This document shows, in pieces, positions 15,201 to 49,428 of a stretch of DNA of 64,000 nt; within the stretch, counting starts at the first letter, position 1; the number at the start of each line of letters is the position of its first letter. This DNA comes from Catenuloplanes atrovinosus (GTDB lineage Bacteria; Actinomycetota; Actinomycetes; Mycobacteriales; Micromonosporaceae): positions 1,116,001 through 1,180,000 of the forward strand of contig NZ_JAVDYB010000001.1 of NCBI RefSeq assembly GCF_031458235.1, in the 5' to 3' direction. The notes beneath the pieces are model-generated. The model did not search any database, was not told the DNA's origin, and saw only the letters and a list, made by a program, of their open reading frames with translations. The position numbers were made by a program, and so were the translations under genes.

Positions 15201-16483
15201 TCCTGGAAAGCTACGGTGCCGCACGCCGGATGCTCGACCAGCTCGCCACCGAGACCGGCGACGGGACGCTGCGCCTGCCGCCGTGGCGGGAACTGGTCGA
15301 CGTGCGGGCGCCCGCGACGCCGGCCATGGAACCGATCCTGCTCGGCGAGTGGTCCGGCCCGCACGCCGGGGCGGCCGCCGACATCCTTGCGTCCGCGCGG
15401 GCCACGGGCGTGCCGGTGGTCGCGGTCGACCTGAGCGGGCCGGCCGGGATCGCCGGTCCGGTGGTGGAGGAGCTGCGGGCGGTGCTGGCCGGGTTCCGGC
15501 GCATGCGGACCGCGCCGGTGGTGGTCGCCACCGCGGCCACCCGCGCGTCCGGCGAGCTGTTCGAGAGCGTGCGGCGCGAGTTCACGCCGGTGCTGATCCA
15601 GTCGGCCGCGGCCGGGTTCGACCGGGTCTGGGTGCTCCAGGCGCCGGACGGCGAGTCCCGGCTGCTGGAGTCGCGGCTCGGCACCGAGATCTTCACGGCG
15701 GCCGGGCCGCTGGCGCGGCTGGTCCCACAGCGCGCGGACGGCGTGCACCTGCCCGGCGCGCTCGGCCTGTGGACCATGTCCCGGACCTGGTCGGCCGCGG
15801 CGGACCTGCACCGGGAGCACCTGGCCGAGCTGCACACGGACGCGGCGGCGGAGGCGCTGGCGGCGGCGGTCGCGGCCGAGCCGGGCGACGCGCGGCTCGC
15901 CGCGTTCCGCACCGTACTGGACGTGGCGCGGGCGGCCGGCGGCCTGCCCACGGACGGCGACGCGCGGCTGACCCCGGTGGCGCGGTCGCTGCTGGAGGTG
16001 GAGCCGGTGCCGGCGGCCGGGCCACGGGACCGGGCCACCGCCGGGTTCGTCTACGACTATCTCGCCACCATGGGCCCACGGACCGGGCGGTACGCCATGG
16101 ACGGCCTGCTCTTCCAGCTCATCCGGGCCGGCGCGCTCACCTGGGACCAGGGCCTGTCGCTGGTCCGCGCGACCGCCGCCACCCCGGCCGACCGCGCGAA
16201 CCTGGCCGTCTTCGAGGCGGTCCGGGACCTGCTCGCGGTGGATCCGGCGCTGGCCGGCGAGGACCCGATGACGCAGCCGGAGCTGCGCGCGATCATGAGC
16301 CGGATCGGCGGCGTCGCGGCGTCCCGGCTGACCACGGACGGGCGCAACCCGGACTGCGTCACCCCGAGCGACCGCGTCAACTGGGTCAAACACCTCGACG
16401 GGCTGCGTGACGCGCTGCGGGCGACGGAGCCCGGCCGCGCGTCCCTGATCGAGGTCGCCACCCACATCCTCACCAACTGCTGA
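6281..16483 (+). CDS. Giant 3400-aa T7SS-locus protein with embedded APH-like kinase domain
   Basis: No signal peptide; I do not recognise the full architecture. Residues about 240-520 hold a small beta domain (RWLVSRDGAAYWVDPG) and an alpha/beta domain. A second alpha/beta region lies around 960-1170. Four Gly/Ala-rich hydrophobic stretches (about 1723-1780, 1813-1856, 1980-2016 and 2120-2173) look able to enter a membrane. Residues about 2580-2830 form an aminoglycoside-phosphotransferase/choline-kinase-like domain with Lys2616 (VVVKIFPR), catalytic loop HGDAHPGN (Asp2767, Asn2772) and metal-binding Asp2785 (FLDVSGA), so it looks catalytically intact. Residues 3015-3400 are a module shared with two other large proteins here, ending THILTNC. 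GTG 6281 follows a GGGAG site. The stop lies 13 bp before the 689-aa gene, so the two are co-transcribed. Candidate secreted effector or surface protein, by inference. Confidence 0.72.
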   Translation: MAFFQICADGRFIPVPSGVFFHDGPMTTPVDLGALTRAMTAERPGGGIAVFLTPRALTDPAAVNRVRLALGGVPAAARDGLLIGSLSGETYDPAGWMTLTETFGLQKHAPFRDGTPLDRRVIGVDAQGLEAVGVPDAIRVLPRAQAAARETLRAAVRLGTERTGSPWQRLEALLAEASAVRDALGVPAAFADEANPSPAYQLAVGLALFGPPPGTDTGLLTRAVLPPTTAELLAVFAPGTTGEPADPAALRDALVAMPGSAALVRSGDRTRWLVSRDGAAYWVDPGADRNAVAPFDPESGGRRTNELRAPGTTVTMLDPAGRIVTFARAATALPPGAFTPAPEPVGPAPGTPPAEPVPPAEAGPEPEATPGDQARDLVAALELPAGEPVIVFSTAVRTGLGGGDGPALAPAVLRDLVDGLRRQYPDGRVLLIGPEPAGDLRERAPELFALRDTAAARGIDLADETRLDAILRELTRVADSTLAGTSDRVPAVSERLGMRTVRLGAGPEFDGTTRADLARRQRLDVPIDWPELHRRGADAVEAGDRDALDRALDDWTDSATAYRDLLDRTTALGRSRARITDGLLGVLRDGRNLDAEAARAWWQAFSAESPLADTLTLHDDDATPAPVTAADVDGLVRVFTTDVDGLVRRVVDLDREYGRPVLPKKVKPEERDVFGGNDAPLLRPAAPEDAGEPSRNPLFLPLDPAAIEEFLRGAPRNGELKKDRILEGFVRRPALWMPLAELRPDMLTEHPGTEWHYFTTAEGEIFIASEVPVDKRLPAAMEELARQTRRLVGERAPELVGLSPDEERLAPVIAAIGAELEPYVARITELERTSVISAKELQALYDGWKPIYPGLTLDHLVEALNTVGHPALGAVELPSRNGSYLLRASLGRTSGELHFIEPLETLDINTKSGRYMSLRVRPPQAGDQPLRWAANVARRISAQLGMPVRLGEMKYSGLPPVEDNPLAEGLRPTVSQVVPDGLGGFRADGMELMIRRVKVSGRDVMVLVSDAEWERLRGRNWLPATDRLGAGLPVVAVHNEGGHVRVPARLDGVDGEVLLTPDQLRTVTERLGANQALLSCEIAALRPEFVQAYADALGGDVLAAPGDLLAGAAGGRLLTRGGDPWLLFTPEGLGESWDTLNDLRSFDGFRSRDDPEAFGAYAAGEPESGVLLTRTPTPDDVVSRARDAERRVEAWLTEAGGEAAVRQRVRGDEVALDALRAARTFLTDIRRVIDPPGTAAGTTAAPAALIGGLDAAIQAFDTGVAPLRNRTGVPAPPWLDESATERITDALAAAVQQVSAGGHGWTLAVADDDPTTVVLTRDGMSSRLRVITDGTVGDADLMLREQDNAASAYRREAAPAELRLPPSMTVADLKSTLIWAGEQLDADRREWMRRITRVMFHAPPRARLGPDGKPAWFRSFGPADRGRLESLTYQLRQPVSAGRNTRIVADLTALGVLSDQKGAAPRAQALDRRLRQQNLPEEARQFVRDRMFDTRSKDAGAGVLDAVRTAAAVLVENSGEIRGAGLTKENGDDILRLRVPEHPLADGEGIVRIRIVPEPPDPMGDLDDTVRLETAETPTLRVRTRTSDAALRVLVAGRLSVLLTTLEKAAPGGKGKVSKSRFEDGRRLLAEETALRQIRNANTGAIARWSRSRTQRLTLHQEILDALIERRRAEMRGLLEGALPDDLRARLTAALTQPTWRANATPGPIADKPGMALHTARRVLSAPVAVTTTVGAGVLAGRQGYLIGSSVAGQGMAAVPQAWSDAANARMGATGGPPKDRLIKPGATAPGYALFSAPSWSSPAQNVIKRSPSGFAQSLASMLVAGAASTQWDKGGAALGLTVLANLIQAELDHVFDRPEGVSSKRYAFEHARTWDKMRNDFVESAYFRVRELIGRSQSQPLSREVRESLEDTRTHITAMMQGILHEVDVATREMVRRRNSPWRRSALSETYDLVARGLGDGMPSRFHNALRVGGQHAAAQIPSLVLGVLANSAVDLVTMNIGAAGASGAVYGAGWSGLKRHEFADLVAVASWDTLNHLRYLLDAITFLLDKDLPLTDGRQPSTPPLGIDELPQANPDRSRLLTAMRKIGLRRLSEARAQGRANDAAGRPREVSGRLQMLYKHIPSFVTHLAAAGAIGGALNLPGAVLGVGIAVGGVAKLATGVGENLLRVSAPLFAQQAGIRQSLAETARMTSTREELATEIKDLMGAAAAAHQEIKPAPVPGWTGFTGTMRSIPGGVRSRLGRAHRATSRGLTRVGDLTTWREPPALWRGPAPTGPVELTHRDRTALNELHEMARDLDYAHDPARTARADLTPDAVGRKLVVLLDRLGLRTAQDPHGHRWRAARADLLRRHGYRVPPNGPLDRLRNARVTGDGGAGRHTPVDVIEEALAEHHTADPLTTTLWTVANRPYFRPLRMDVRAGGWIKVFLGDGRRYRIRVSTAVVGADSGARLRLAPDDLWHAVRGTTRDEAHTLVLDPAHAADPDLLDSALRWATAQIHRHRTGNRHRVQDMMTGPARILLTMPSTGVSEVPEARARASAGRTLDGQVPAATIRGMEDLLPALTSADDAGVRTFVSGAMNWGEVTLTRLGEQFETGSGAIVHRARGPAGTEPVVVKIFPRMSRFVEELSALERLSRPGFTAFTVPEVRAVGAVNRSGTPVGVLVMSEVNGVTLTDLLAGVGAAALASLRADALARAREAIAALGRAMADLHARRGGAVSQAYLDGQVAWVRDQVRHLPEGHEQRTRAEAAISLVTADPGPAGLVHGDAHPGNVVWHPVDGITFLDVSGAHRSIGPDGAPAGMPERDISTFLSKLRSQGSALGLRMRDELMVLRQAFLDAYDGAGGVRAQHVADMFQAARHARQVREGAPVELMVFPAAVPDQLGLSDPARLPNPAALLGQAVLLGRRYRGHEAGRITVALARANAAPQTERITELLDTFTGGLASVVDGLGTLLRTAGQDPARLSAYRDEFLEVLESYGAARRMLDQLATETGDGTLRLPPWRELVDVRAPATPAMEPILLGEWSGPHAGAAADILASARATGVPVVAVDLSGPAGIAGPVVEELRAVLAGFRRMRTAPVVVATAATRASGELFESVRREFTPVLIQSAAAGFDRVWVLQAPDGESRLLESRLGTEIFTAAGPLARLVPQRADGVHLPGALGLWTMSRTWSAAADLHREHLAELHTDAAAEALAAAVAAEPGDARLAAFRTVLDVARAAGGLPTDGDARLTPVARSLLEVEPVPAAGPRDRATAGFVYDYLATMGPRTGRYAMDGLLFQLIRAGALTWDQGLSLVRATAATPADRANLAVFEAVRDLLAVDPALAGEDPMTQPELRAIMSRIGGVAASRLTTDGRNPDCVTPSDRVNWVKHLDGLRDALRATEPGRASLIEVATHILTNC

Positions 16484-16496
16484 CCGGAGGACCGCC

Positions 16497-18566
16497 GTGA
16501 CCCTGCCGCTGACCCCGCGCGTCATGGACGCGATCTGCCTGGAACACGTCATCCCGACCGGCACCGGCAGCCTCATCGTCAACGCGGCGCCGTCCACGCT
16601 GGACCGCGACGCGCTGCTGCACGAGGCGCTCACGCTCCCCGCGATCCCGAAGTACACCACCGTGTCGTTCGGACCGGGCATGCGCGACGCGCTCGTCGAC
16701 GCCCGGCCCGGCACCGTGACCTGGGAGGACGGCATCGCACGCCCGACCGGTGAGCTCGGCCCGGAGCACGGGACCGTGCGGGCGCTGATGTACCAGTACT
16801 TCCGCGGCATCCCCGGCGAGGCGATGGACCGGATCGTCGAGCGGCCGCTGTTCGGCCCTTCCGGGGAGGCCGCGACGATGAGCCCGGACGAACTCGGCGC
16901 GCGCGCCGACCTGATGGGGTTGCCGGTGGAGATCCCGGCCGACCGGCTGCGCCCGGCGGCGACCACGCTCGACCCGCACCGGATTCTGTACTTCGACGAG
17001 CACGGCCGGCTCACCACGGAGCCGTACGCGCGGATGATCCGGGTCGTGCCGGCCCGGCACTGGGAGCCGGACCCGTACGCCACCGCCTCGCCGGAGGCGC
17101 GCGCGGAGGCGCTGCGGGACGGCTACCCGACCGCGCGGATCGTGCCCGCGGGGGGCCGGGTGCAGCTCGGCCTGCCGCCCGCGCTGACCGCGCACGCGCA
17201 CGGCGACGCGGTGCGCGGCGCCCGGCAACCGCGCGCGGAGGATCTGGAGCGGCTGCCCGGCCAGGTCACCGTGGCCACCTACGGCGATCTGCTCGCGCAC
17301 GTGGCCGGCGGGACCGCGACGCACTCGCTGGTCGAGGTGCGCGCGCCCGGAGCGGCCGCATCCGAGGTGTTCCTGGCCGTGCACGACCCGTCCGGCGACG
17401 CGTTCCTCGACCTGGGCACCGGCCGGGCCGCGCTGTTCCCGCCCGGCCCGGAGCTGATCCGGGTGGCCGCGCTGCCCGGCGAGATGACCGTGGCGGAACG
17501 GGTGCTCGACCTGGCCGCCGGCGACGTCACGGTGCGGCCGATCGTCCGGCCGCGCGGGGTGACCGCGTACCGCACGTTCGGGCCGTCCGGCATCCGCGCG
17601 GTCGACGTGCTGGGCGACGTACCCCCGAAGATCCTGGATCCGATCGCGGACGCGGCGGAGGCGATCGGCCAGTCCGTGATCGTGGTCGGGCCGCGGGCAC
17701 GCACCGGGCCGTCCCGCCGCGACCTGCTCCGGCTGGAGAAGATGCTGTTCCAGCACCTGCAGAACGGCGGGCCGGCCCCGATCGTGCTGGACCACGGCGA
17801 GGCCGGGACGCACCAGGCGGAACTCACCGCGATCGCCGGCCGGTACGGCGCACCGGTGATGCGCCGGGTGCCGGGGCTCGGCCTCGACCTCACGCTCAAG
17901 TGGACCGGTGCCGGGCCGGGCGACACCACCGCGGTCCCGCCGTTCACGGAGATCAACCGGGAGACGCTGAAATCGGTCGGCGACCGGCAGCGCGCGAACG
18001 AAAGGGTCAAGACCGAGTCGGCGCTCGCGTCGTACCTGTCGATGGACCCGGCGGACACCACGCGACTCCGTGACACGCTGGCCAAGGAGGGCAGCGCGCT
18101 CAAGGCGCTGCGCGAGCAGATCTCCGCGCTGCCCGCCGACAGCGCGCTGTTCGCGCCGCACGCCGCGCTGCTGGACATGTTCGGCCGGCAGGACGGCCTG
18201 TTCGAGGCGGCGCTCGGCTATCTGGACGCGACCGCGGACGGCGCCATCAAGACCATGCCGTCCGTCACGTCGGCGCTGGACCGCGAGCCGGCGGCGCGCT
18301 CCGCCGCGCTGGAGGAACTCAAGGCCGTCACCGCCGGTACGCTCGACGACGGCGCCAGCCGGGCCATTCTCGACGCCATCAAGCTGCGGTTGGAGGGCGC
18401 CGACGCGAAGGCGGTCGAGCAGGCCATCCACACCCACTCGGGGTACCTGCCGAAGGAGGGCGGCCGGGCCGACTTCATCCGCCAGCTCAGCGCGTGGCAG
18501 CAGCAGATGCCCGAGCACGCCGAGGTGTTCAGCGAGGTGGCGCTCTACGTGACCACCTGTCCGTGA
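16497..18566 (+). CDS. 689-aa companion protein sharing the C-terminal module of the giants
   Basis: Unknown function. GTG 16497 follows GGAGG seven bases upstream and lies 13 bp after the 3400-aa gene, so the two form an operon. Residues about 255-345 contain EVFLAVHDPSGDAFLDLGTG, resembling the small beta domain near the N-terminus of the 3400-aa protein. Residues about 355-470 are alpha/beta (SVIVVGPRA, APIVLDHGEAG, APVMRRVPGLGLDLTLKW). The rest is helical and ends in YVTTCP. The tail (DFIRQLSAWQQQMPE through TTCP) aligns with those of the 3400-aa and 5196-aa proteins. No signal peptide or membrane segment is visible. It may be a minimal version or partner of the giants. A strong hairpin follows at 18574-18606. 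Confidence 0.7.
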   Translation: MTLPLTPRVMDAICLEHVIPTGTGSLIVNAAPSTLDRDALLHEALTLPAIPKYTTVSFGPGMRDALVDARPGTVTWEDGIARPTGELGPEHGTVRALMYQYFRGIPGEAMDRIVERPLFGPSGEAATMSPDELGARADLMGLPVEIPADRLRPAATTLDPHRILYFDEHGRLTTEPYARMIRVVPARHWEPDPYATASPEARAEALRDGYPTARIVPAGGRVQLGLPPALTAHAHGDAVRGARQPRAEDLERLPGQVTVATYGDLLAHVAGGTATHSLVEVRAPGAAASEVFLAVHDPSGDAFLDLGTGRAALFPPGPELIRVAALPGEMTVAERVLDLAAGDVTVRPIVRPRGVTAYRTFGPSGIRAVDVLGDVPPKILDPIADAAEAIGQSVIVVGPRARTGPSRRDLLRLEKMLFQHLQNGGPAPIVLDHGEAGTHQAELTAIAGRYGAPVMRRVPGLGLDLTLKWTGAGPGDTTAVPPFTEINRETLKSVGDRQRANERVKTESALASYLSMDPADTTRLRDTLAKEGSALKALREQISALPADSALFAPHAALLDMFGRQDGLFEAALGYLDATADGAIKTMPSVTSALDREPAARSAALEELKAVTAGTLDDGASRAILDAIKLRLEGADAKAVEQAIHTHSGYLPKEGGRADFIRQLSAWQQQMPEHAEVFSEVALYVTTCP

Positions 18567-19514: not shown

Positions 19515-22457
19515 ATGAGCACCTCCGAGATCGGTTCCGTCGCCGGTTACCGCGACGGCAGCACCGCCGAGTTCGACCTGGACGGCATCCTGGCCCGGCA
19601 GACCCGGCCGGACGGCGTCGTCCTCGACGCGTTCGACGCGCACCAGCGGCCGACCGCCGGGCACACGGACGCGGCCCGGTTCACCGTCGCCTATCCGGAG
19701 GCACGCAATGACCTTCCGCAGGAAAGAGACGGCGCAGGCGTTGAGCTCTCACCGGCCGGGGACGTCATCCGCCGGCGATACGCCGACGGCACCGTCCATG
19801 AGTCTTTTGACTCCCTCGGCCGACCGCACCAGGGAATCGCGGGCGATACTCGCTTCGACATCGAATACGGCGCGAACGGCCGCGTCACCAATCGTTTCGT
19901 CGACGGTACGGTCGTCGACTACGACGGCGCCGGCCGCGTTCTCCGCCACGAGACGCCCGACGGCACCGTCTACGATTCCTTCGACCCGGCGGGTCGCCCC
20001 ACGGCCGGTCACGGCACCACGGATTTCACCATCGACTATCCGGCCGGCGGCGGCTCCGTCATCCGCTACGCCGACGGCTCCTCCGCCACCTTCGACGCGG
20101 ACGGCACCCTCGTCTCCCAGTCACCCGGCCCCGCGCCGGATCCCGGCACCACCGTCACCACCGCCGCTGCCGAACCACCGGCCCGGCAGGTAGCCGACGA
20201 CGGCACGGTCTTCTCGTCGTTCGACGGGGACGGCCGTCCGCTGGCCGGTGAGACGCCGGAGGGCGACCGCTTCACCATGTCCTATGACGCCGGCGGCGGT
20301 TCGACGGTGTCGTACGCCGATGGTTCCACGGTCGTGTTCGACGCCGCCGGTGACGTGGTGTCCCAACGGCTGGCGGACGGGACGGTGTTCTCGTCGTTCG
20401 ACGGCGAGAACCGGCCGCTGAAGGGAGAGACGCCGGAGGGCGACCGTTTCACCATGTCCTACGACGCCGCCAGCGGCTCCACCATGTCGTACGGCGACGG
20501 CTCGTCCGTGGGGCTCGACGCCGACGGGAAGGTGATCTCACAGCGGCTGGCCGACGGGACCGCCTTCACGTCGTTCGACGGCGATGGTCGGCCGCTCACG
20601 GGCCGGACGCCGGAGGGCGAGCGGTTCACGATCTCCTACGACGCCGGCGGCGGTTCGACGATGTCGTACGCCGATGGTTCTTCGGTCGTGTTCGATGCCG
20701 CCGGTGAGGTGACGCGGCAGACGCTGGCGGACGGGACCGTGTTCACGTCGTTCGACGGCGAGGGACGGCCGCTGAGCGGTGTGACGCCGGAGGGGGACCC
20801 GTTCACGATCTCCTACGACGACGGCGGCGGCTCCACCATGACGTACCCCGACGGGTCGTCCGTGGTGTTCGGCGCCGACGGTGCCGTGACGCGGCAGACG
20901 CTGGACGACGGCACCGTGTTCACCGCCTTCGACGACGACGGGCGGCCGGTCGCGGGAGAGACGCCCGAGGACGACCCGTTCACCGTCGCGTACGACGAGC
21001 GCGGCTCGCGGACCTCCTACGCCGACGGGTCGAGCGTGCGGTTCGACGCGAACGGCACCGTGGTGTCGCAGCGGCTCGCGGACGGGACGGAGTTCACCCG
21101 GTTCGACGCCCAGGGCCGGCCGCTGGCCGGGACCACGCCGGAGGGGCAGCGGTTCGCGGTCTCCTACGACGACCGGGGCGGCTCGGTGATGACGTACGCG
21201 GACGGGTCCTCCGTGTCGTTCGCGGCGAACGGGGCCGTGGTGTCGCAGACGCTGGCGGACGGGACCGAGTTCACCGGGTTCGACCCGGAGAACCGGCCGC
21301 TGGCCGGGAGGACGCCGGAGGGGCAGCAGTTCGCGGTCTCCTACGACGACCGCGGCGGGTCCGTGACGAGGTACGCGGACGGGTCCTCGGTCACGGTCGA
21401 CGCGAACGGCACCGTGGTCGGGCAGCGGCTCGCGGACGGCACCGTGTTCACCGCGTTCGACGGCGAGGGGCGGCCGTGGAAGGGGATGACGCCGGAGGGC
21501 CGGTCGATCACGCTGACCTACGACGGCGGCACCGTCACCACGGCGTACGGGGACGGCTCCTCGCTCACCACGGACGCGGACGGCGATCCGCTGCGGATGA
21601 CCACGGTGGACGGCACGGTGTTCACCGAGTTCCACGGCGACGGGCGGCCGAAGGTGGGCGTGACGGCGCAGGGCGAGCGGTTCACGATGACCTACGACGA
21701 CACCGACCACACGACCCGGATCGCGTACGACAACGGCACCACGATCGTGCTCGACGCGAACGACGACCCGACGTACATGAGCACCTCGGACGGCTCGGTC
21801 TTCACCGACTTCCTCGACGACGGGCGGCCGCGCTCCGGGACCGGCCCGAACGGCGAGCACATCTCGTTCACCTACGACGACCGGGCCGGCACGTCGACCG
21901 CGGTGATCGGCGACAACACGATCGTCTACGACGCCGGCGGCAACCCGGTCTCGCTGACCACCGCCCAGGGCTACGTCTTCAGCGACTTCGAGAACGGCAA
22001 CTTCACCCGCGGGTACGACCCGGCGAGCGGCCGCCACTTCGACATCAGTTACGGGCCGAACGGCGAGACCACCTGGCGGTACGGCGAGCACGACTCCGTG
22101 ACGTTCGACCGGAACGGCAGGCCGATCTACGCGGAGTACGTCGACGGCGACGGCCGCGCCATCGGGGTCGACTACGCGATCCAGATCCCGCTGCTGCAGC
22201 AGACCGCCGAGTACACCCGGACCGAGCGGGAGACCGTCTCCGCCCAGCTGGAGCTGCTCAAGGGGCAGATCACGGAGGCGAAGGGCTACTGGGTCAGCCC
22301 GGCCGGCCGCACGTTCGAGGCGTACAGCGCGGTCGTGGAGACGGCCGCGAACAACCTGCTCGGCGTGCTCGACGCCGCGATCAGCAAGCTGGAGCTGACC
22401 CACGCCAACTACGTCGGCAGCGAGAGCACGAACGCCGGCAACATGACGCCGAAGTAA
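19515..22457 (+). CDS. RHS/YD-like repeat protein with C-terminal WXG100 domain
   Basis: A 980-residue protein made mostly of a repeat of about 59 residues. Each unit contains DGTVFTSFDGDGRPL, then PEG(D/E)RFTxSYD, then YADGSSVxFDAxGxVxxQ. About 14 copies of the DGTxF element can be counted, so this is a long beta-strand-rich fibre like RHS/YD proteins. The last 90 residues are a helical WXG100-type domain: turn YWVSPAGRTF (W926) and export motif YVGSE (966-970). The domain order is reversed relative to usual WXG-headed toxins. ATG 19515 has GGTGGG upstream; longer in-frame sequence runs through the opposite gene and is not coding. Likely a T7SS-exported surface fibre, by inference. Confidence 0.78.
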   Translation: MSTSEIGSVAGYRDGSTAEFDLDGILARQTRPDGVVLDAFDAHQRPTAGHTDAARFTVAYPEARNDLPQERDGAGVELSPAGDVIRRRYADGTVHESFDSLGRPHQGIAGDTRFDIEYGANGRVTNRFVDGTVVDYDGAGRVLRHETPDGTVYDSFDPAGRPTAGHGTTDFTIDYPAGGGSVIRYADGSSATFDADGTLVSQSPGPAPDPGTTVTTAAAEPPARQVADDGTVFSSFDGDGRPLAGETPEGDRFTMSYDAGGGSTVSYADGSTVVFDAAGDVVSQRLADGTVFSSFDGENRPLKGETPEGDRFTMSYDAASGSTMSYGDGSSVGLDADGKVISQRLADGTAFTSFDGDGRPLTGRTPEGERFTISYDAGGGSTMSYADGSSVVFDAAGEVTRQTLADGTVFTSFDGEGRPLSGVTPEGDPFTISYDDGGGSTMTYPDGSSVVFGADGAVTRQTLDDGTVFTAFDDDGRPVAGETPEDDPFTVAYDERGSRTSYADGSSVRFDANGTVVSQRLADGTEFTRFDAQGRPLAGTTPEGQRFAVSYDDRGGSVMTYADGSSVSFAANGAVVSQTLADGTEFTGFDPENRPLAGRTPEGQQFAVSYDDRGGSVTRYADGSSVTVDANGTVVGQRLADGTVFTAFDGEGRPWKGMTPEGRSITLTYDGGTVTTAYGDGSSLTTDADGDPLRMTTVDGTVFTEFHGDGRPKVGVTAQGERFTMTYDDTDHTTRIAYDNGTTIVLDANDDPTYMSTSDGSVFTDFLDDGRPRSGTGPNGEHISFTYDDRAGTSTAVIGDNTIVYDAGGNPVSLTTAQGYVFSDFENGNFTRGYDPASGRHFDISYGPNGETTWRYGEHDSVTFDRNGRPIYAEYVDGDGRAIGVDYAIQIPLLQQTAEYTRTERETVSAQLELLKGQITEAKGYWVSPAGRTFEAYSAVVETAANNLLGVLDAAISKLELTHANYVGSESTNAGNMTPK
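19720..22120 (+). repeat. Tandem 177-bp (59-residue) coding repeats
   Basis: In-frame tandem repeats inside the RHS-like gene. The best-conserved copies lie between about 20200 and 21480, where successive units start with GACGG(C/G)AC(G/C)-like codons for DGT. DNA identity between neighbouring copies is high enough to suggest recent unit duplication, while the flanking copies have drifted. Confidence 0.8.
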
Positions 22458-31281: not shown

Positions 31282-31593
31282 ATGCCCGACATCTTCGAGA
31301 CCCACATCCGCGTCCCCACCGACCTGGAGGGGGCCGGCACCTTCATCAACGGCGCGTCCGCCGAGATCATCGGGGACCTCACCCGGCTGGAGAACCAGCT
31401 CGCGCCGCTGGCCGCCACCTGGGTCGGCAGCAGCGCCACCTACTTCGAGGACCAGCGCCTCGCGTGGAACGTCGCGGCCGACGGGCTGTTCGGCCCGGAG
31501 GGCGTGCTCGGCATGATCGCGCACGCGCTGAACGTGAACTACCAGAACTACTCCGAGGCCGAGCTGGCCAACGAGAACACCTGGAAGCGCTAG
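31282..31593 (+). CDS. WXG100 protein (EsxA/EsxB-like), second of pair
   Basis: A 103-residue helical hairpin with the turn ATWVGSSATYFEDQRL (W47-V-G49) and the C-terminal motif YSEAE (90-94), again YxxxD/E. ATG 31282 follows ACAGGAG. The stop TAG is directly followed by the ATG of eccD (TAGATG). Having both partners carry the export motif is less common than the one-partner arrangement of mycobacterial EsxA/EsxB. Confidence 0.92.
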   Translation: MPDIFETHIRVPTDLEGAGTFINGASAEIIGDLTRLENQLAPLAATWVGSSATYFEDQRLAWNVAADGLFGPEGVLGMIAHALNVNYQNYSEAELANENTWKR

Positions 31594-42800: not shown

Positions 42801-45800
42801 GCACGTCGGCGGCCAGTTCGACCGGTGGAACGCGTCGGCGTCCGACGACGCGCCGCCGATGCACCGGCTGCGTGACGAGGTGGAGCGGCAGGCGCCGCAG
42901 CTGGTCGAGCGGACGCGCGCGCACGTGATCGACACCTGGGTGCGGCACCGCGACTCGCTCGGCACCGGCCACGCGCGGGCCGCCATCGAGCGTGACCTCG
43001 ACCTGGTGGCCGGGCAGGTGGCGGCGGAGCACCTGAGCACGTTCCGTGACGTGCACGGCGGCGCGGGCGCGCGGCAGCGGCACGCCTACGAGCACACCCG
43101 CGACCTCCACACCGGGCGCGCGGTCGACGAGCTGATCGACACGCTGCGCGGCTCCGGCAGCACGCTGCCCCGGGCCGGCGTGGAGCGGATGGTGCTGGAG
43201 ATCCGGGACCGGATGCGCGAGGTCGACGCGGAGCTGCGCGGCGAACTGGGCGCGTCCCGGTACTCGCCGGAGTCGGTGGACCGGGCCGTCGAGCGCCTCT
43301 CGGCCGAGGCCGACCAGATCCGCGCGGAGGTCCCGGCCCGGATCCGCTACGAGGAACGCCTGGACGCCGGCCTCCAGGGCGCCGCGCGACGGTACGCCGG
43401 CCTGCTCGGCGACAGCCCGCACGTCGCCGTCAACCGCACGCTCGCCGCCGGCTTCGGACGCGAGTGGTTCGGCCGGTTCGACGCGGTGTACGGCGGCGAG
43501 AGCGCGCTGCTGAGCCGCCCGCTCCCGGGCCGTACCGTCGACGACCTCGCCGCACGGGTACGCCCCGCCGCGGCGGAACACCTGGCCGAGGGCGCGCCGT
43601 GGACCGCGTCCGAGGTGCGGGCCGTCATCGCCCGGCGCAGCGCGCCGCCGGACGGCGGGCAGCCGTTCGCGATCGGGTTCGCCGGCGACGAACGGACGGT
43701 CCGGGTGGTGGCCGGCGGCGACGAGGCGACCGTCCGGGACATGCTGGACTGGTACCTGGGCGACCTGCCGACCGCCGCCCGCCGGGCCGTCGTGCTGGAC
43801 ATCGGCCAGGTCACCGACGTCGTCCCGGCCACGTTCGGGGCGCGGCTGGCCGACGCGCACGACGTCGTGGTCGAGTTCCCCGGCGGCGGGCCCGGCACGG
43901 CCGGCGACTCGCCGCGCCTGATCGGGTTCGGCCCGCGCGGCGACCGGGTGCCGCTGGCGTTCGCGGAGACCGTGCGCGTCACGCCGTCCGCGCGCGCCGG
44001 GCACACCGCGGAGCACTTCGGACTGACCCCGCACCCGGACGGCGGCTACGACCTCGGCAACGGCTGGCGGCTCTCGGTCACCCGCGACGCCGGCGGCGTG
44101 CCGCGCACGGTCGGCACCACCGGCCCGGACGGCATGCCGGAGGCGGTCGGCGGCCTGATCCGGCGGTTGCACGAGGCCGGGATCGACCCGGTCGCGGCCG
44201 GCGCCGCGCCCGAGTTCACGGTCACCGTCCGGGACGGCTTCGGCACCAGCCTGGATGCGCTCTACCGCGGCTTCCGGGACATCCGCGCGGCGAACCTCGG
44301 CCGGGCCGGTACGAACGACGCCGTCAACCGGTCGATCGACGAGTTCGTCGCGTCCCGCGGTCGGACGGCCGGCGACGCCGCGGAGTCCCGGTTCCCCCGC
44401 GTGCCCGACGACGCGGACCTGACGCTGCGGCTGGCGAACCTGCGCCGGGACGATCCGACCGGCACCGCGCACCCGGGCGAGGAGCCGGACACCCCGCCGG
44501 TCGTCGACCCGGAGCCGGCCGAGTTGCGGGCCCGGGTGGACGCGCTGCGCGGCGACGACGGCCGGGCGAGCGACTGGCTGGACCCCGGCACCGGGCGCAC
44601 CGAGCGGTACGGGTACCGCGCCATCCGGGACGGTGCGGCACCGCCCACCCGGGAGGAGGCCGCCGCGCTCGACCACGAGTGGCGCACGCTCTCCCACGGC
44701 CGGGACCAGCGCGCGATCGACGCGTACTGGGACAAGCTCGCCCGCCGCGGCATCGAGCCGGCCACCGGGGCGCCACGCGACGAGCCCTCGTTCCCGGTGG
44801 CGCCGATCTCGGACGACGAGTTCGTCCGGATGTACTCCGACGCCGCCGGCGCGCGCGGACGCGAGCGCGGCCTGGCCACGGACACCATCGACGCACATCT
44901 CGCCGAGGTGGACCGGGTGATCCGGGCCGGTGACGCGGAGGGGTTCGCCCGCGCGGTCCACCGGTACGACACTGACGTGTGGGACGCGGTGTACGCCGCG
45001 AACGCCCGCGAGCGCGCGCTGGAGCAGGCCCGCGCGGCCGGCGTCGCCGAGGACGACGCGCTCGCGTACCACCGGGAACTCATGGGCCTGCCCGGGGACG
45101 ACCCGGCGCGCGGCGCTGCGCTGCGCGAGGCGTGGCTGCGGCGGATCGGCGAGGAGGTGCCGGCCGCCCCGCCGGAGCGCCCGGCGAGCCCGGCGCCCGC
45201 GACGGAGGCCGATCCGGAGCTGCTCCGCCGGCTCGAGGGCCTGGCGGCGCCCCGACTCGGCACGGCCGCGATGCCGGACGCGCCCACCGGGGCGCCGGGC
45301 GGCCGCTCCGGGCCGCGCGGCGGGGACGGCGACGGCGCGGCCCACGTCGTCCGGTCGCGGCGGCAGCCGTCGTCCGCGGCGGAGCACGCGGCGCTGCAGG
45401 GCCGGCTGGACCGGCTGCGCGGCGGTGACCGCGGGCCGGAGACCGTGCCCGGCGCCCCGTCGGCCGACCTGAGCGACCTGCGCGCGCTCATGGGCGGCTC
45501 CGGCGACGACACCCCGCCACCCCCGCCACCCGGCGACGGTCACGGGGACGGCGGCCACGGTGGTCCCGGTGACGGCGGCGCGCCCGGCACGCCACCGCGC
45601 GGGCAGGCCGCCGGCTCGGAGACGATGCCGCTCCAGCAGCGCCCCGCCGAGGCGCCCGCGCCGCGCGCCGTGGAACGGCCCGACGCCCGCTCGTTCACCG
45701 CCTCCTACGACTACCGCCCGGTGCGCGAGGACGTGCCGCCCGCGAGCCGGCAGCGGATCGCGCGGTTCGAGGGCGGGCTGGAGACCGCGCGGGCGACCGG

Positions 45801-48800
45801 CGACCCCGCGCGGGTCCGCGCCTGGCACCACGAGCTGGACCGCGCCGGATACCGGGCCGCGCCGCTCACCGGGACCGCGCTCACCCCGCTGGCACCGCAC
45901 GAGGAGGAGTTCCTGCGCGACCAGCGCCGGGCCGCGAGCGCGCACCCGGTCACCGAGTCGACGGTGGACACCTTCCTGATCGGCGCGGAGCGGGCGGTCC
46001 GCGCCGGGGACCGGGACGCGTTCGCCCGCGCCGTGACCGAGCTGCTGGACGCGGCCGCGGCCGGGCGACGGGACCAGCGACTGCGCGAGCAGGTGGAGGC
46101 GGTGCGGCGCGAGGAGGCGCGCGCGGCGGGCATGTCCGCCGCGGCGTTCACCGCGCACCGGGCGGCGGTCCACGAGGCGGTCGAGTCCGGCTCGGCGGCA
46201 CGGCTGAGCGCGGCGCTGGACGCGTACGCCCGGGACCTGGCCGCGGCCCGGGACTCCGGCGAGCGCTCCGACCTGACCGCGCCGGTGCGGCACCCGGGCG
46301 ACGACGCCGCCGCGCGGCGGGACCTCGACCGGCAGCTGCGCCGGTTCGACGCCATGCGCGGGACCGCGGCGCTGAGCGGGCCGGAGGCGGCGGAGCACCG
46401 CAGGATCGAGCTGACCCGGACGTACACGACCGTGCTGACCACGGTGATGGAGTCGGTGCACCGGGTGGACGCGATGCTGGACCGGCAGCGGGAGATCCTG
46501 ACCGAGGACGAGCGCGAGGCGATCCGGGCCCAGCACCTGGTCACGGCCGCGGACCGGCTCGCCGGTGCGCTGGACGACGGCACCACGGCCGGCCTGGCCG
46601 ATGTGGAGGCCGCCACCGGGGCCCGGATCGACGGCGTGCTCGCCGCCCTGGAGCGGGGGGAGGAGCCGGACGTACCGCCGATGCCCGCGCGCCGGATCGC
46701 CCCGCCCGCCGCGGCGACGGAGACCGTGCCGCCGCTGCCCGCCGGGCTGGACGGCGCGGACCTGGCCCGGCTGACCGCCGACGCCGGCGCCGCGGTCGAC
46801 CGGGCGCTGCGGCGGGACCGCGCGGAGGAGAGCCGGCCGCCGCACCCGCTCACCGTGGCGGAGATCCGCCGTCGGGTCCTGCACGGCCTGGCCGAGGCGT
46901 TCCAGGTGACCTGGGGCGCGCTGCCGCCGGGCCGGTACGCGGCCGAGGCGCTGCTCGACGCGCCGCACCCGCTGGACCCGGCCGGGCAGCGCGCCTGGCA
47001 GCGGGCGCTGCGCGACGCCGAGCACGCGGCGCAGACGGCGCTCGCGGAGGCGGACGCGCTCCGCGGCGCCCTGGAGGAGGCCGCCGACCGGTTCCACGAC
47101 CTCACGCTGCGCGCCGGCATCGAGCCCGGCCCGATCCTGGACCGGCTCGCGCTGCGGTTCCGCGAGGACGCGGCGCGCGAGCACTACCGGGCCCGGGGCC
47201 TGCCGGAGGAGCGGCTCGCCCGGGACCTGGACGCGGAACGGCACCGGGACGACGCGTTCGTCACCCGCCTCACCCGGCCGCACGGCCCGGCCACCGGCGA
47301 CGCCGCGGCCGAACCGGACCCGGAGCGGCACGACCGGTGGGAGGCGCGGCGCGAGGCGCTCGGCCGGGAACTGCGCCGCCGCGCCGAGCTGCGCGCCCGG
47401 GTCCAGGAGAACCGGCCCGACTGGGACGCGGTCTTCGACGAGGAGTCGCGGCGGGGCCGGCCCGGCGCGCCGCCGGAGAGCGCGCGGGCGGACTTCGCCC
47501 GCCGCGCCGAGCAGGCCTACGAGCAGCTCTGGGGGTACGTGGCCGAGCGCGCCGAGAGCCTGGACGCACCGCTCTGGGACGCGGCCCGGCAGCAGTGGGA
47601 GAACACACTCCGCGACCTGCTCCGGCCCCCGGCCCCCGCGAACCCGGGCACGACGGTCCAGGCACCGCCCCGCCCACCGGCGGAACCGGTCGCCCGGCCC
47701 GAGAAGCGCTCCGGCACGGCCGCCCCGACACGTCCGCCCCAGCCGTTCGCCCCGGCCGAACAGGCACTGGACTCCATTCACGCGGCCGTCCGGCGCGCGG
47801 AGCACCGCGCCTCCGCGCTCGTGCGCGGCCTGGACCTGCCGGACGAGATCCGCGAACGCGTCCGCGCCGACGCGCGGGAACTGCTGCACGCGGAACTGAC
47901 CACGGCCACCGAGCAGCTGAACCGGCTGCGGTACACCGAGTCCGGCCGGGCCACCGCGGTCGGCGACGCGAACCGGCGGCTGATCGCGCTGGTGGACGGC
48001 CTGCCGGCCCGCGCCGCGCTGTGGCGTCGGATGGTCGCGGACGCGCCGCGCGCGGCGCAGGACTTCGCCGCGGAGATGAACCGCGCCGCCGCGGTACGCC
48101 GCACCGTGCTGGCCACCGCGCCGGTCTTCGCGCACGAGTGGCTGACCGAGTACGCGCGCACCCACGGCGGCCCGGTGACGCTCTCCGAGCCCGCGCTCCG
48201 GGCGTACGCCCGGGAGGTGGCGCACGCCGCGGCCCGGCGCGCGCTGGACGGCGTGGCCGGCCGCGACGCGCTGGCCGAGGCCGAGCGTGACCTGCTGCGG
48301 ATGGCGGACGGCCTGTTCACGGACGAACCCGCGCCGCACGACGCGGCGAACCGGGTGCCGCGCCTGCCCCGCGGCCTGGGCGCGGACGACGACGGCATCA
48401 TCCGGATCGGCGACGCCGGCCACCACTTCCTGCGGCAGCTCCGGGACGGGCGCCGGTCCGCGGGCGTCGACGGGCCGGTCGTCGTGGTCGGCGGTGACCT
48501 CGCCCCCGACACGGTGCGGGACCGGCTCGGCGGCGTGCTCGAGGCCTACTACGAGCTCGGCACGCGCCCGGTCGTCGCGCTCGGCGACGGTGTCGGCCCG
48601 GACGCGTACCGCGACCTGATCACGCTCTACCAGGTGCCGGTCGTCCGGCGTACCGAGCGGTCACCCGGCGGGCTCCGGCTCGACCGGGCCTGGGAGGTGC
48701 GGCTGCCGGCCGGCCCGCGGGACGCGCCGGACGCGGCCGGCGCGCTCACCCTGGCCGCGCGGGCGCCGGGCCTGGACGGGTACGGCGACGTGCTCTCCGA

Positions 48801-49428
48801 GGAACTGCACCGGTGGCTGTCCGCCGGCACCTGGACGGAGAAGCGGGACCTCTTCCGCGACCTCGGCGACACGCTGTCCACACCGGACAACCGGCACGCG
48901 GTCGAGCGCATCCTGCTGCGGCGCCCGGCCCGCGACGTCCGGCACGGCCACGGTGCGGTGCGGGAGCTGCCGCGCCCGGTGGCCGGCGGCACCGAGGCCG
49001 CGGTCGATGCGGTCGGCACCCACCGGGCCGTCCTGGAGCTGGCCGCGCGGGGCCGCGCCGGCACCGCGTTCGACTACCTGACCGCGACGGACGCGGCCAC
49101 CCGGACCACGCTGCTCGCCGACGAGGTGGTCCGGGACCCGCGGCCGGATTCGATCGCCACGCTGGTCGGGCTGGCCAACGGCGCCAACGACGACGTCACG
49201 CACGGCGCCAACGCGGCCGTGCTGGAGGCGCTGCGCCTCACGCTGGCCGAGACCGACGGCGTGCCGCCCGCGGCCGAACAGCTGATCACCGCGAACCGGA
49301 TGTACCTGGCCGACGGCACGGACCGCGCGCACTGGGCGCGCCGGCTCCGCGACATGGCGGCCGGCATGCCGGACCGGGTGGCGCAGCTGGCCAGGATCTC
49401 CGAGCTGGTGATGACGTGCATGCCGTGA
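33838..49428 (+). CDS. Giant 5196-aa WXG-headed protein with long helical repeat region
   Basis: GTG 33838 follows GGGAGG. Residues 1-95 are a WXG100-like/CpnT-N-terminus-type helical hairpin (AQWNGDTAV, W42-N-G44). Residues 98-220 are hydrophobic, with at least one clear transmembrane helix (IFLILTIVGTFFLFLTPFFA). Residues about 226-720 are a Pro/Gly/His-rich linker with PEPVPHGTAGRPGTPTPP repeats. From 733 to 1118 there are three diverged tandem repeats of 110-140 residues (turn FVDDWFAxHxGPDAP). Then follow thousands of residues of charged Arg/Glu/Ala helices, broken by an alpha/beta domain near residues 3265-3500. Residues 4851-5196 are the C-terminal module shared with the 3400- and 689-aa proteins, ending LVMTCMP. 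No known toxin domain was recognised. Likely a T7SS-exported surface giant, by inference. Confidence 0.75.
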   Translation: MADGALHPDPANIDALAGEWDKFAIEIGELSGALDQLINAQWNGDTAVQSDRVAEAIKTRVTEIRDACTQMATSLREMAEEVRKAIQARRAQELIERIFLILTIVGTFFLFLTPFFAMIGNLGRLGAILSVVGRALNVVGDLVATILSRLPMVTAAAAENIGAFVNGVFWAVGISFGIQGGVHAGFGVPWQPDVWNEVTNALVGGATAIMFGGIQIYSWGKNGAVQTRSVHDPSRLNHSNPGPVTIPRVDAATPTPMPVGDGHLPPPAAFATADGTVPPPRSMPHLDEVSSRPPGVDGDLPVLASSTGVNHQVGEIGALPPAGTTAGGAHVPPPTPRGGEHQAVAPVPHGTSATHAGTPPLGRTPSPEPHRLGDPPITHGGSRAGTPPVAHLDNTVLPPAGRPSTPDGRPGGVTPPAPHGLTPQTPHSPTHAPLPGDPVTHGNGRMSPPPGDPQPLAGGRPATPAPQQPHDVIASGRPTARAEPVPHGTAGRPGTPTPPPEPVPHGTAGRPGTPTPPAEPVPHGAAGRPGTPTPPAGEPQRPVVSESSRTVADLTKPSSLPQTPSGGGRSAVPEPPLGRPGTPQAMPVHDGPSTAPEGPRGRTPSDASSVSSLPPARRPAGGDGQVPEPIVRRARSAESFASSTSPESPAPAVRRADPADPPAAGTTTPEPPVSRRPPTATEIVESAPMTPRRLPSAESLRAPVPLSRGGDDPASAPSPSRAGDDAIVRDLDDLRQRLRDRGVADREFDRRVTEYLAGQRARENGADAPTVRREDLDDLRHDFYTDTDRGLKDLFTGAGPVRVKDGVAYVQERGTALHEAFTSRMEPPTDPGTPVISASSRPSAYEAMWRDGDDTPTAGRRPGSDADDEAAAITAWRAEDLDATVKDWNDLKTRLEAGQRADAEFNSRVRGFVDDWFAAHTGPDAPPFTRAELSAELQRRRLDFSEFGRPELRKLVAEGRLGTVGDAVAVIRRQGEGLLRDFTLDATRLTGADPAGAPAAVSRQAGTRNEIAGNRDVLADRLWARQEADAVFNARVREFVDDWFARHSGPDAPSFTRRELADALESHRFEFFYDSQLTLRRHFADGMRIRVQDGVDFLTTQGERLPEVFGQETYRLMARRQANEISAGLGREHAERHPGLLAPEAYRRVANELRIEASSHAVGRRYDADGTPRATPDEHWDHDPTTPQGRERLERYYRDRIAEEVRAAHDPVIQREFTPIADELDALAAAGRPDVPAPWEPPTKASLLREFRDRVLDRLIARRDATDPVPAVREEMIERLRTRRLAEEEFARGRQELDAVIDRRGGIDRPWERAFRADLERDLRTRVANAGPHPTPDRVAAIRDQWTAELPTRLDRAMRAVTYARFDDVLTGWRSRQTETGQPHHLTDEAVETLRARYERATGDDVAAWRGTDRDTDPRIIQDRLASRADEARAWLTGAARLEHDLSAVRTHAAAVERDFRQGTAGGNPLSEAGYARARADLLADVRGARVTGDRAGVRRHLDDYRGRLERERLFEAEHARVADRVDARLRPDGGPVTPERRTLLDQALERFRGRVHDAARPSAVFTGDDVPGTVTDARAARLRQARARFLEELSAPPSGRAAPEPAPTPRRGAAPEPETVVDRLADDAGHWADRRFAERHASDPDRTPSPEGYARARDEFVRDVRAAATTELRHGAVEPPALRDRIQELERGFAERLHAERRFEDRLAIERAHLDETVGGWVATDRDLAPYDAAIRAELVADLRARVLDAGPDGAGTAAARWRDGLGDRRDAITRAVRTSADIDGMVRAAHADLDPHHPVDSRTVDPVRRRLADAIVAELRAWRDSATGGGTAIRAGELTERLDGHVRAARREVELGIRRDAYARGERTWARTTVTRMDTPVPAGARDRAIAGHLDETRAAFTEAGGPGRALDERMATLRDGFARRVRREAAIEEAYRTSVLPALDERLPRPHGNTAEAARVARIRGEEFNDFRDRMLRHDGSDARAVVGEWRAGLEERIAGAGHLGGLERAFGEFFDTQVSARVRTGEHVSARFTDGQSRRIANRAAYLHDRAWLTGGEGARAVDVHRTVLDRLRRDAVAAAHRMELDAAVRKVFSDQQAAQTEHFGPARDAGDLTLRPAELDRLHERLTQRLTRDFWNVWGREPGGVNRAPELSGDRHRAWQQRLDRARADLAEWMHQARVDRIGAGHGPITPRAEHPAAAPSGPDTGRPHTIISGRERLAALADSLRARFGHGPATPRAPLPDPEPVPPSRGEPMALSAYQREQVWQRTLPELREHGLQRARLEQDLVLRGYDGDAAFRRAVRTWERDNPELVAYLSERDRRAIRSADFDPGMQTIREYAWGRRGESVADPAEVRAMIDANAAILRERFTAVADHHRTLERQGRTPTPPADEPMPRDWPAGESSWRELQRIPDARARRDAEAMFRDVAATYAGTRGPGRRTLPAEHVDRAGASFFREARLHHEGAPAGGLITPRDAFLSRMGPARGRLADDLSLAQVADHAFATATAPSTLADGVARLTRRPAPAESLARLTPDQLSRVRETFHGSLRQLRDELWAGRPGEFARRHDAGDLLGRSGDDPSPTPRWNARLDRLAETLPARIEQEHLFGGLTGQAATEFDAVMGGPGRHRLPDATYDALADRFRSDYVTAHREMYGIGERETRTWLGHEAAHENGFGTRLDELREQAAGRAWDAPFTEETVHDPVPTGTAPLGRDDAHLVPEDFGGVPRWNARPDVDTAGGGERAGGTPEPRELPEPPRATPEQDALFQRLERELSGAYARRVRHAAGIETRRPDLAEGFDDQLRETGAAFAGADPRFGSLHTLPAGERAAWRSRFVADGDALFERVWEPVLRDGAPEGSPAWRRAEADWEAGYQRLRAQLRLDAFHRHQIGRHHDVVARHVEAARTMGIADHDIAVGVQAFARDVQVTADSLIASRPRPHAGPDRFDAGDLARWDAADAALHRRLREYVMNAGLDADTAVGRVKEHVGGQFDRWNASASDDAPPMHRLRDEVERQAPQLVERTRAHVIDTWVRHRDSLGTGHARAAIERDLDLVAGQVAAEHLSTFRDVHGGAGARQRHAYEHTRDLHTGRAVDELIDTLRGSGSTLPRAGVERMVLEIRDRMREVDAELRGELGASRYSPESVDRAVERLSAEADQIRAEVPARIRYEERLDAGLQGAARRYAGLLGDSPHVAVNRTLAAGFGREWFGRFDAVYGGESALLSRPLPGRTVDDLAARVRPAAAEHLAEGAPWTASEVRAVIARRSAPPDGGQPFAIGFAGDERTVRVVAGGDEATVRDMLDWYLGDLPTAARRAVVLDIGQVTDVVPATFGARLADAHDVVVEFPGGGPGTAGDSPRLIGFGPRGDRVPLAFAETVRVTPSARAGHTAEHFGLTPHPDGGYDLGNGWRLSVTRDAGGVPRTVGTTGPDGMPEAVGGLIRRLHEAGIDPVAAGAAPEFTVTVRDGFGTSLDALYRGFRDIRAANLGRAGTNDAVNRSIDEFVASRGRTAGDAAESRFPRVPDDADLTLRLANLRRDDPTGTAHPGEEPDTPPVVDPEPAELRARVDALRGDDGRASDWLDPGTGRTERYGYRAIRDGAAPPTREEAAALDHEWRTLSHGRDQRAIDAYWDKLARRGIEPATGAPRDEPSFPVAPISDDEFVRMYSDAAGARGRERGLATDTIDAHLAEVDRVIRAGDAEGFARAVHRYDTDVWDAVYAANARERALEQARAAGVAEDDALAYHRELMGLPGDDPARGAALREAWLRRIGEEVPAAPPERPASPAPATEADPELLRRLEGLAAPRLGTAAMPDAPTGAPGGRSGPRGGDGDGAAHVVRSRRQPSSAAEHAALQGRLDRLRGGDRGPETVPGAPSADLSDLRALMGGSGDDTPPPPPPGDGHGDGGHGGPGDGGAPGTPPRGQAAGSETMPLQQRPAEAPAPRAVERPDARSFTASYDYRPVREDVPPASRQRIARFEGGLETARATGDPARVRAWHHELDRAGYRAAPLTGTALTPLAPHEEEFLRDQRRAASAHPVTESTVDTFLIGAERAVRAGDRDAFARAVTELLDAAAAGRRDQRLREQVEAVRREEARAAGMSAAAFTAHRAAVHEAVESGSAARLSAALDAYARDLAAARDSGERSDLTAPVRHPGDDAAARRDLDRQLRRFDAMRGTAALSGPEAAEHRRIELTRTYTTVLTTVMESVHRVDAMLDRQREILTEDEREAIRAQHLVTAADRLAGALDDGTTAGLADVEAATGARIDGVLAALERGEEPDVPPMPARRIAPPAAATETVPPLPAGLDGADLARLTADAGAAVDRALRRDRAEESRPPHPLTVAEIRRRVLHGLAEAFQVTWGALPPGRYAAEALLDAPHPLDPAGQRAWQRALRDAEHAAQTALAEADALRGALEEAADRFHDLTLRAGIEPGPILDRLALRFREDAAREHYRARGLPEERLARDLDAERHRDDAFVTRLTRPHGPATGDAAAEPDPERHDRWEARREALGRELRRRAELRARVQENRPDWDAVFDEESRRGRPGAPPESARADFARRAEQAYEQLWGYVAERAESLDAPLWDAARQQWENTLRDLLRPPAPANPGTTVQAPPRPPAEPVARPEKRSGTAAPTRPPQPFAPAEQALDSIHAAVRRAEHRASALVRGLDLPDEIRERVRADARELLHAELTTATEQLNRLRYTESGRATAVGDANRRLIALVDGLPARAALWRRMVADAPRAAQDFAAEMNRAAAVRRTVLATAPVFAHEWLTEYARTHGGPVTLSEPALRAYAREVAHAAARRALDGVAGRDALAEAERDLLRMADGLFTDEPAPHDAANRVPRLPRGLGADDDGIIRIGDAGHHFLRQLRDGRRSAGVDGPVVVVGGDLAPDTVRDRLGGVLEAYYELGTRPVVALGDGVGPDAYRDLITLYQVPVVRRTERSPGGLRLDRAWEVRLPAGPRDAPDAAGALTLAARAPGLDGYGDVLSEELHRWLSAGTWTEKRDLFRDLGDTLSTPDNRHAVERILLRRPARDVRHGHGAVRELPRPVAGGTEAAVDAVGTHRAVLELAARGRAGTAFDYLTATDAATRTTLLADEVVRDPRPDSIATLVGLANGANDDVTHGANAAVLEALRLTLAETDGVPPAAEQLITANRMYLADGTDRAHWARRLRDMAAGMPDRVAQLARISELVMTCMP
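35281..35451 (+). repeat. Tandem coding repeat in the Pro-rich linker
   Basis: Three in-frame copies of a roughly 54-bp unit encode PEPVPHGTAGRPGTPTPP with small changes. They sit inside the disordered linker of the 5196-aa protein. Confidence 0.75.
36034..37190 (+). repeat. Three diverged domain-level repeats in the 5196-aa protein
   Basis: Copies begin near 36034, 36494 and 36877. Each reads L.xR..AD.xFxxRVxxFVDDWFA.H.GPDAP.FTRxEL followed by a helical part ending in a GDGV/QxxG segment. Copies two and three are the most alike. They appear to be a small folded unit at the start of the helical region. Confidence 0.6.

Follow-up and report, generated by a model that had tools for sequence, protein, structure and literature searches.

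Introduction

Giant multi-toxin proteins of actinobacteria have been described among the polymorphic toxins, the longest of them with 13,652 aa (Zhang et al., 2012, PMC3482391), and substrates of type VII secretion systems (T7SS) are known as LXG and WXG proteins, as the reverse substrate TslA and, in the ESX systems of mycobacteria, as PE-PPE and WXG100 heterodimers (PMC11217815; both sources as far as the parts drawn on here go). In this study, we analyzed three proteins of 689, 3400 and 5196 aa from an ESX-like type VII locus of Catenuloplanes atrovinosus (Micromonosporaceae), a stretch of 64,000 nucleotides at positions 1116001-1180000 of the 8.9-Mb chromosome (hereafter the window). The three open reading frames (ORFs) and their cysteine-containing C-terminal ends, as given in the original prediction, agree with the coordinates and tails found here (Table 1). 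We lean towards reading their common C-terminal module, hereafter the C-frame, as the C-terminal half of a two-ended frame of giant effectors linked to type VII (ESX-like) secretion in Micromonosporaceae, for which we infer export, pairing and a covalent clasp from sequence comparison.

This frame system would resemble both polymorphic toxins and T7SS substrates in its logic and differ from them by its conserved C-terminus. With the polymorphic toxins it has in common a conserved carrier and exchangeable effector domains; however, in the portions of that work considered here those toxins vary at their C-terminal toxin domains (PMC3482391), whereas the frame proteins vary internally, keep both ends conserved, carry a Cys at the C-terminal end and usually have an empty partner encoded with them. 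The likeness to LXG and WXG substrates and to TslA lies in the nearby EccC and WXG100 pair and in the WXG-like head of the 5196-aa giant; in contrast, the 3400- and 689-aa proteins have no WXG or LXG match, and the main text of the source does not contain the word "cysteine" (PMC11217815). PE-PPE and WXG100 heterodimers are paired substrates, as the frames are proposed to be, but according to the same partial source they bind by helical hairpins, while here each putative partner is a frame with 654-785 aa or more, and one of the two carries the cargo. No description of such frames was found in a literature search of open-licence PMC full texts.

Results

Homology of the C-Terminal Module

Genes were called by a codon-usage script in 22 stretches from 19 member genomes (a twentieth, G568, gave none), and 96 members with complete C-ends were counted, comprising 45 giants (A), 36 small proteins (B) and 15 WXG giants (C). 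Ten of them had been named by hand, partly for their Cys tail, and the others were reached via BLAST; seven ORFs, broken or truncated, were excluded, and shorter fragments as well as the ORF G120_015 were left uncounted.

BLASTP among the three window proteins linked only the 689- and 5196-aa proteins (139 aa, E 2.4e-5), giving no match at E≤1 between 3400 and 689 and only interior matches with E≥0.17 between 3400 and 5196. Pairwise hhalign comparison of the three C-terminal families gave Prob values of 99.2, 97.7 and 99.8. With larger sets, the subtype-1 C-frames of the two types defined below, P+ and P-, were aligned at Prob 99.0 (E 2.3e-18) and a score of 140.6, against 20.5 for the reversed and at most 16.2 for shuffled sequences, and the six reversed controls run stayed at Prob ≤2.2. 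When the HMMER filters were off, the P+ model found the 689-aa (1.1e-9) and 5196-aa (1.1e-23) proteins and the P- model the 3400-aa (9.3e-9) and 5196-aa (3.8e-31) proteins, while 0 of 96 reversed controls were picked by these models. Three decoys were picked (G006b_018, G006b_019 and G120_015), each of them evidently a member that is broken or was left uncounted, and the 3 of 146 interior giant pieces matched are apparently internal copies. Within its own genome, the C-frame of the 5196-aa giant was recovered by profiles A1 (E 3.1e-24) and A3 (E 4.3e-21). By these profile comparisons the C-frames of the three proteins are homologous, which bears out the originally predicted shared module; a profile also recovers the other members, the P+ and P- models doing so solely under sensitive settings. 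The uncounted G120_015 (locus L193 of genome G120) is a 638-aa ORF ending in SKCL that is recognised by the P+ as well as the P- model (2.2e-28 for the latter) and is likely an extra member.

The strands and helices first described for the module fit the AlphaFold2 model of the 689-aa protein, in which the pLDDT of the C-terminal half is mostly 70-90 and the last two helices (656-670 and 672-687) form a hairpin. That the module belongs to no named family also agrees with our searches, which gave no significant Pfam, NCBIfam or PDB-sequence match: the 3400- and 689-aa proteins had no WXG, LXG or other Pfam or NCBIfam family at E≤0.1, 0 of 20 modules matched NCBIfam, and the best PDB sequence match had E 0.027. 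Fold comparison of the C-frame returned weak Rossmann-like matches only, among the fold families listed. An intein-like reading, considered for the N-terminal Cys and the Asn-Cys end of P+, had no Pfam support and was dropped on the strength of intein motifs, P- ends being mostly TCP. "Lonely Cys domain", a name from public annotation, appeared in 0 papers and was absent among the NCBIfam matches, and is not used here.

Two-Ended Frames and Their Gene Pairs

The N-terminal part, beyond the original account, is also common to the 689- and 3400-aa proteins: their first ~310-330 residues are homologous and include a single Cys close to the beginning. When N-frames of subtype-1 giants were compared with those of the small partners by hhalign, the value was 99.0 (E 9.5e-18), and 0.1 for the reversed control. 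A frame protein is laid out as an N-frame of ~310-330 residues and a C-frame of ~335-390 residues that ends in Cys. Because both ends are shared, the 689-aa protein is a frame without content, and the 3400-aa protein is that frame filled with ~2,700 exchangeable cargo residues; the empty small partners have 654-785 residues. The original account of a common C-terminal module near EccC and EccD is correct but incomplete: the module makes up only the latter half of a frame with two ends, there are two versions of it, and the 689-aa protein is the form that lacks cargo. N-frame and C-frame were also compared as a possible duplicated domain, and this was rejected (hhalign Prob ≤6.7, bar one overlap artefact in the short proteins, where the N- and C-frames of B1- cover the same residues).

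The P+ C-frame has an extra Cys 39-53 residues before the end, which the P- C-frame lacks. Subtype-1 giants and subtype-2 small proteins make up the P+ class (hhalign of C-frames 100, E 1.5e-39; of N-frames 99.9, E 2e-31), and subtype-2 giants and subtype-1 small proteins the P- class (99.8, E 1.6e-27 and 99.7, E 4.2e-27, respectively). As C- and N-frames sort alike, cargo lies in P+ for subtype 1 and in P- for subtype 2, with the frame identities kept. Judged from the called genes, frames stand at both ends and every counted adjacency combines P+ with P-: each of the 37 adjacencies of A and B genes at <1 kb, which involve 32 giants, brings a P+ and a P- gene together (31 + 6, 0 otherwise). 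With 6 between-pair adjacencies left out, the P+ gene leads 23 of 25 subtype-1 pairs and 5/5 same-strand subtype-2 pairs. A subtype-2 pair of this genome, a 1345-aa P- giant with a 692-aa P+ small protein, lies just past the window end (64877-71011).

Stand-alone remnants of ~70 residues with only the P- Cys tail were observed in G067 (C1:7038738, 6996952), G047 (C1:7509183, 7433557) and G084 (C1:5313029-5313262), apparently at the same sites in two or three species, with a dN/dS of about 0.25-0.53.

Cargo Between the Frames

In the five orthologues compared with the 3400-aa protein, ~residues 4-311 and 3021-3400 were conserved throughout (5/5), and ~residues 1090-3010 were unmatched in G047, G067 and G084 and partly matched in C. 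japonicus and G655. The classical layout of polymorphic toxins, variable at the C-terminus, was not found, the ends being conserved and the middle varying in 5/5 comparisons. These alignments demonstrate an exchange of cargo at one orthologous locus. Across frames, cargo length ranges from hundreds to ~12,000 residues.

Thirteen giants were scanned with Pfam, two of them only as the called, shortened ORF; the toxin domain PF15644 was above cut-off in two (E 4.7e-25, C. japonicus; 7.7e-6) and below it in a third (0.0068). The Pfam scan of the 3400- and 5196-aa proteins gave no toxin domain, and no window cargo had any Pfam match. Several candidate activities were not retained: in the cargo of the 3400-aa protein, a kinase-like segment (motif HGDAHPGN) reached E 0.078 in the PDB sequence search (5yjz) and a caspase-like segment returned nothing, so that neither is claimed; OTU-like motifs (GDGNCLF) in two G036 giants had no Pfam support in the scanned pieces; and the idea that the C-frame is a decayed caspase-like cargo segment (..LLSC..) failed, with hhalign Prob ≤0.4 against C-frames and ≤3.5 against N-frames. 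A putative deaminase-like motif (PCxxC type) lies in a G670 giant, outside the scanned piece.

Cysteines of the Frame Proteins

A Cys was found within the last 12 residues in 96/96 counted members, anywhere from the last to the twelfth-last residue, compared with 44 of 715 other called proteins of at least 150 aa. The invariant columns were only one Leu and the two C-frame Cys (Cys3359, Cys3400) in the P+ alignment A3 (35 rows), and only one Gly and the terminal Cys in alignment A4. The N-frame Cys was located by pattern in 36/36 small proteins and 44/45 giants, and by eye in the 45th giant, G721_013, within CPDIKVIPLPAG; its position in G684_011 was assigned by hand. A further set of alignments was anchored on these Cys, so that part of their complete conservation in that set follows from the anchoring. 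All 36 small proteins combine this Cys with an interior free of Cys, and the 28 counted subtype-1 small proteins have two Cys, one near each end. Interior Cys numbered 0 against 164 expected in small proteins, 76 against 1216 in giants and 14 against 595 in WXG giants, counts that demonstrate a depletion of Cys away from the protein ends. Several of the interior Cys of giants stand in what we take to be catalytic contexts.

The 5196-aa giant has two Cys only, residues 68 and 5194, and its head matches Pfam WXG100 (2.8e-4), T7SS_signal (4.2e-4) and NCBIfam WXG100 (8.9e-5), all below the gathering cut-offs. A WXG-type head was read by eye in 15/15 WXG giants, with W-x-G/R located in 14. These giants lack the N-frame Cys yet keep the terminal Cys, which in 7/15 is the sole Cys of the called protein; it therefore cannot serve an intrachain bond alone, and its retention argues for a bond to another molecule. 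The two longest called proteins are WXG giants of 16,604 aa (G699 C1:745739-795553) and 16,176 aa (G626 C1:2141195-2189725); measured from stop to stop they span 17,163 and 16,824 codons, which is very long for bacteria.

Distribution and Linkage to Type VII Secretion

All 96 counted members come from one family, Micromonosporaceae. Among 354 family genomes, the B-module profile matched 20 at E≤1e-3 and the P+ profile 33, 23 of them at E≤1e-20, while the two profiles met only 3 weak matches outside the family among 396 phylum genomes (E 2.3e-4 to 4.4e-4); these searches scored about 5-6 candidates per genome, and members may thus have been missed. Matches were present in 5/5 genus genomes examined, with large arrays of such genes in three, and a scan of a genome collection gave 3 loci, all from Catenuloplanes japonicus.

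A search of 340 family genomes with the EccD of the locus gave matches (E≤1e-15) in 31, of which 22 reached at least 250 bits, a threshold of our choosing. Matches of the module were originally expected always beside EccC/EccD, and this nearly holds: of the 22 genomes whose EccD reached this score, 19 carry P+ frames (E≤1e-20), which share a contig with EccD at no more than 30 kb from it in 16 and stand on separate contigs in 3. Four of the 23 strong P+ genomes were outside the EccD matches, some of them perhaps because the 340 searched genomes were drawn from a larger group; two of the four (G670, G699) have EccD in the fetched stretch, and the exceptions are G736 and G120, whose fetched stretches of 119 kb and 40 kb contained neither EccC nor EccD. 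Gene neighbourhood thus establishes a linkage of the frames to EccC/EccD.

Genes and Features of the Locus

EccC, EccD, a WXG100 pair and a mycosin, the hallmarks of T7SSa (ESX), are all present in the window by Pfam (Table 1); neither EccB nor EccE was named among the Pfam matches of the window proteins scanned, in which no specific search for them was made. WXG100 protein a has a Cys at 17-19 in nearly all listed relatives. Pairing of a Cys in the WXG-giant head with this Cys was rejected as a general rule, because WXG protein a keeps its Cys where the giant head is without one. The YbaB/EbfC gene is convergent with that of the WXG giant, and its product is reminiscent of EspL of mycobacterial ESX-1. 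Besides the mycosin-like protease, a second subtilase is encoded at 52328-53728 (-; PF00082, 1e-21). An RHS-repeat protein at 19515-22457 (+) lacks Cys and matches WXG100 weakly at its C-terminal end (residues 889-967; E 0.0013, below cut-off); it is possibly a reverse-type T7SS substrate.

Table 1. Features of the type VII locus, in window coordinates.
Feature	Position	Strand	Remarks
3400-aa protein (P+ giant)	6281-16483	+	ORF; end ..THILTNC
N-frame, 3400-aa P+ giant	6281-7213	+	~residues 1-311, to ~327 versus G655; Cys7 (6299-6301, ICADGR)
Cargo, 3400-aa giant	7214-15340	+	~residues 312-3020; without Pfam match
P+ C-frame, 3400-aa protein	15341-16483	+	Cys3359 (16355-16357), terminal Cys3400 (16478-16480)
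689-aa protein (P- small protein)	16497-18566	+	ORF; end ..YVTTCP
N-frame, 689-aa P- protein	16497-17531	+	Cys14 (16536-16538)
P- C-frame, 689-aa protein	17559-18566	+	Cys688 (18558-18560); alignments A1, A4; AlphaFold2 model
One TM-like stretch, then 4 Cys	23231-24004	+	relatives present in many loci
Beta-helix + AAA ATPase	24045-26786	+	Pfam PF13229, PF00004, PF17866
EccC (FtsK/SpoIIIE ATPase)	26795-30844	+	Pfam PF01580, 5e-83
WXG100 protein a	30935-31255	+	Pfam 1.5e-14; single Cys, residue 18
WXG100 protein b	31282-31593	+	Pfam 2.2e-7
EccD-like (YukD + EccD transmembrane domain)	31594-32970	+	Pfam PF08817, PF19053
5196-aa WXG-headed giant	33838-49428	+	ORF; end ..LVMTCMP; upstream ATG 33724 would give 5234 aa
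P- like C-frame, 5196-aa giant	48394-49428	+	Cys5194 (49417-49419)
YbaB/EbfC family protein	49472-49813	-	Pfam PF02575, 3.4e-21; relatives in several loci
MycP-like (mycosin-like) subtilase	56697-58241	+	Pfam PF00082, 1e-20

Discussion

P+ and P- frame genes stand mostly side by side, one of the two products carrying cargo and its partner staying empty. Most probably the frame proteins are carriers of exported effectors, with a WXG giant that has a P- like C-frame as third component. Frame proteins would be exported through the adjacent type VII system, and P+ would pair with P-, or with a WXG giant, through the C-frames. Mycobacteria oxidise exported proteins via DsbA-VKOR, as stated in the part of the source considered here (PMC12421883); the terminal cysteines of the frames may likewise be oxidised outside the cell and form a disulfide clasp between partners, and the extra Cys of P+, which immediately precedes the final hairpin of helices, might form a bridge with the terminal one. 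A docking role of the module and a crosslink role of its Cys, both raised in the original prediction, are plausible, and no evidence was found for the lipid or thioester chemistry proposed alongside them. Taken to its full extent, a redox-clasped two-part delivery is conceivable, in which P+ and P- (the WXG giant serving as targeting handle) are exported by type VII and joined covalently by their terminal Cys, cargo of almost any length in either partner moving between two uniform frames until reduction in the target frees it; in all its parts together we hold this as a tentative and rather doubtful proposal.

Several results weigh against the two-ended frame and its pairing. At default HMMER filters and with whole proteins, the P+ model recovered 14 of the 37 P- proteins but none of the 15 WXG giants, and the P- model 2 of the 44 P+ proteins and a single WXG giant; a model built from the 15 WXG giants missed the 3400- and 689-aa proteins even with filters off, finding 1 of 44 P+ and 10 of 37 P-, and the C-frames of subtype-2 WXG giants gave hhalign Prob values of only 0.2 and 0.8 against P+ and weak ones, 25.5 and 40.4, against P-. 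No intact partner within 1 kb was found for 13 of 45 giants and 5 of 36 small proteins, and the P+/P- rule rests on two subtypes and hence on few independent events. Furthermore, most cargo, including all window cargo, is without Pfam match, and a toxin is accordingly demonstrated for few giants only.

It could also be that the C-frame is a C-terminal targeting domain for type VII, of the reverse, TslA-like kind, which is read by EccC or the WXG pair and whose Cys only steadies the last hairpin. The hairpin of the last two helices in the 689-aa model, the C-terminal LXG-like domain of TslA (PMC11217815, in the portion considered) and the weak C-terminal WXG100 match of the RHS protein all fit such a function, but the 15 WXG giants, which already possess a WXG-type head, still keep a Cys-ended C-frame, and neither the two complementary frame types nor the conserved N-frame Cys would be explained; we judge it unlikely. 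A bond in cis that joins the N-terminal Cys of a frame protein to its C-terminal Cys, closing the frame with its cargo looped out, would account for the two Cys of the subtype-1 small proteins. The terminal Cys of the WXG giants, in seven of them with no other Cys to join, and the third Cys of P+ do not agree with it, and the pLDDT of ~42 around Cys14 in the 689-aa model speaks neither for nor against its proximity to the C-terminal Cys; this low confidence weighs on the frame reading as well. We give such a cis bond still less weight than the targeting function. Use of the terminal Cys as a chemical attachment point, for a lipid, a thioester, the cell wall or a cofactor, appears very improbable to us: the terminal position, the invariance and the giants with a single Cys would suit it, yet the position of the Cys shifts from the last to the twelfth-last residue, and no modifying enzyme was recognised among the Pfam-scanned window proteins, for which no systematic search was made.

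If the two-ended frame is correct, actinobacteria would standardise and export proteins of ~1,300-17,000 residues by means of conserved frames, with exchangeable cargo inside and an empty partner. Effectors could then be searched for by a simple mark, namely a Cys-poor giant protein with a Cys at its C-end, encoded near EccC/EccD. In addition, the substrate logic of non-mycobacterial ESX-like systems would become testable by a few cysteine substitutions.

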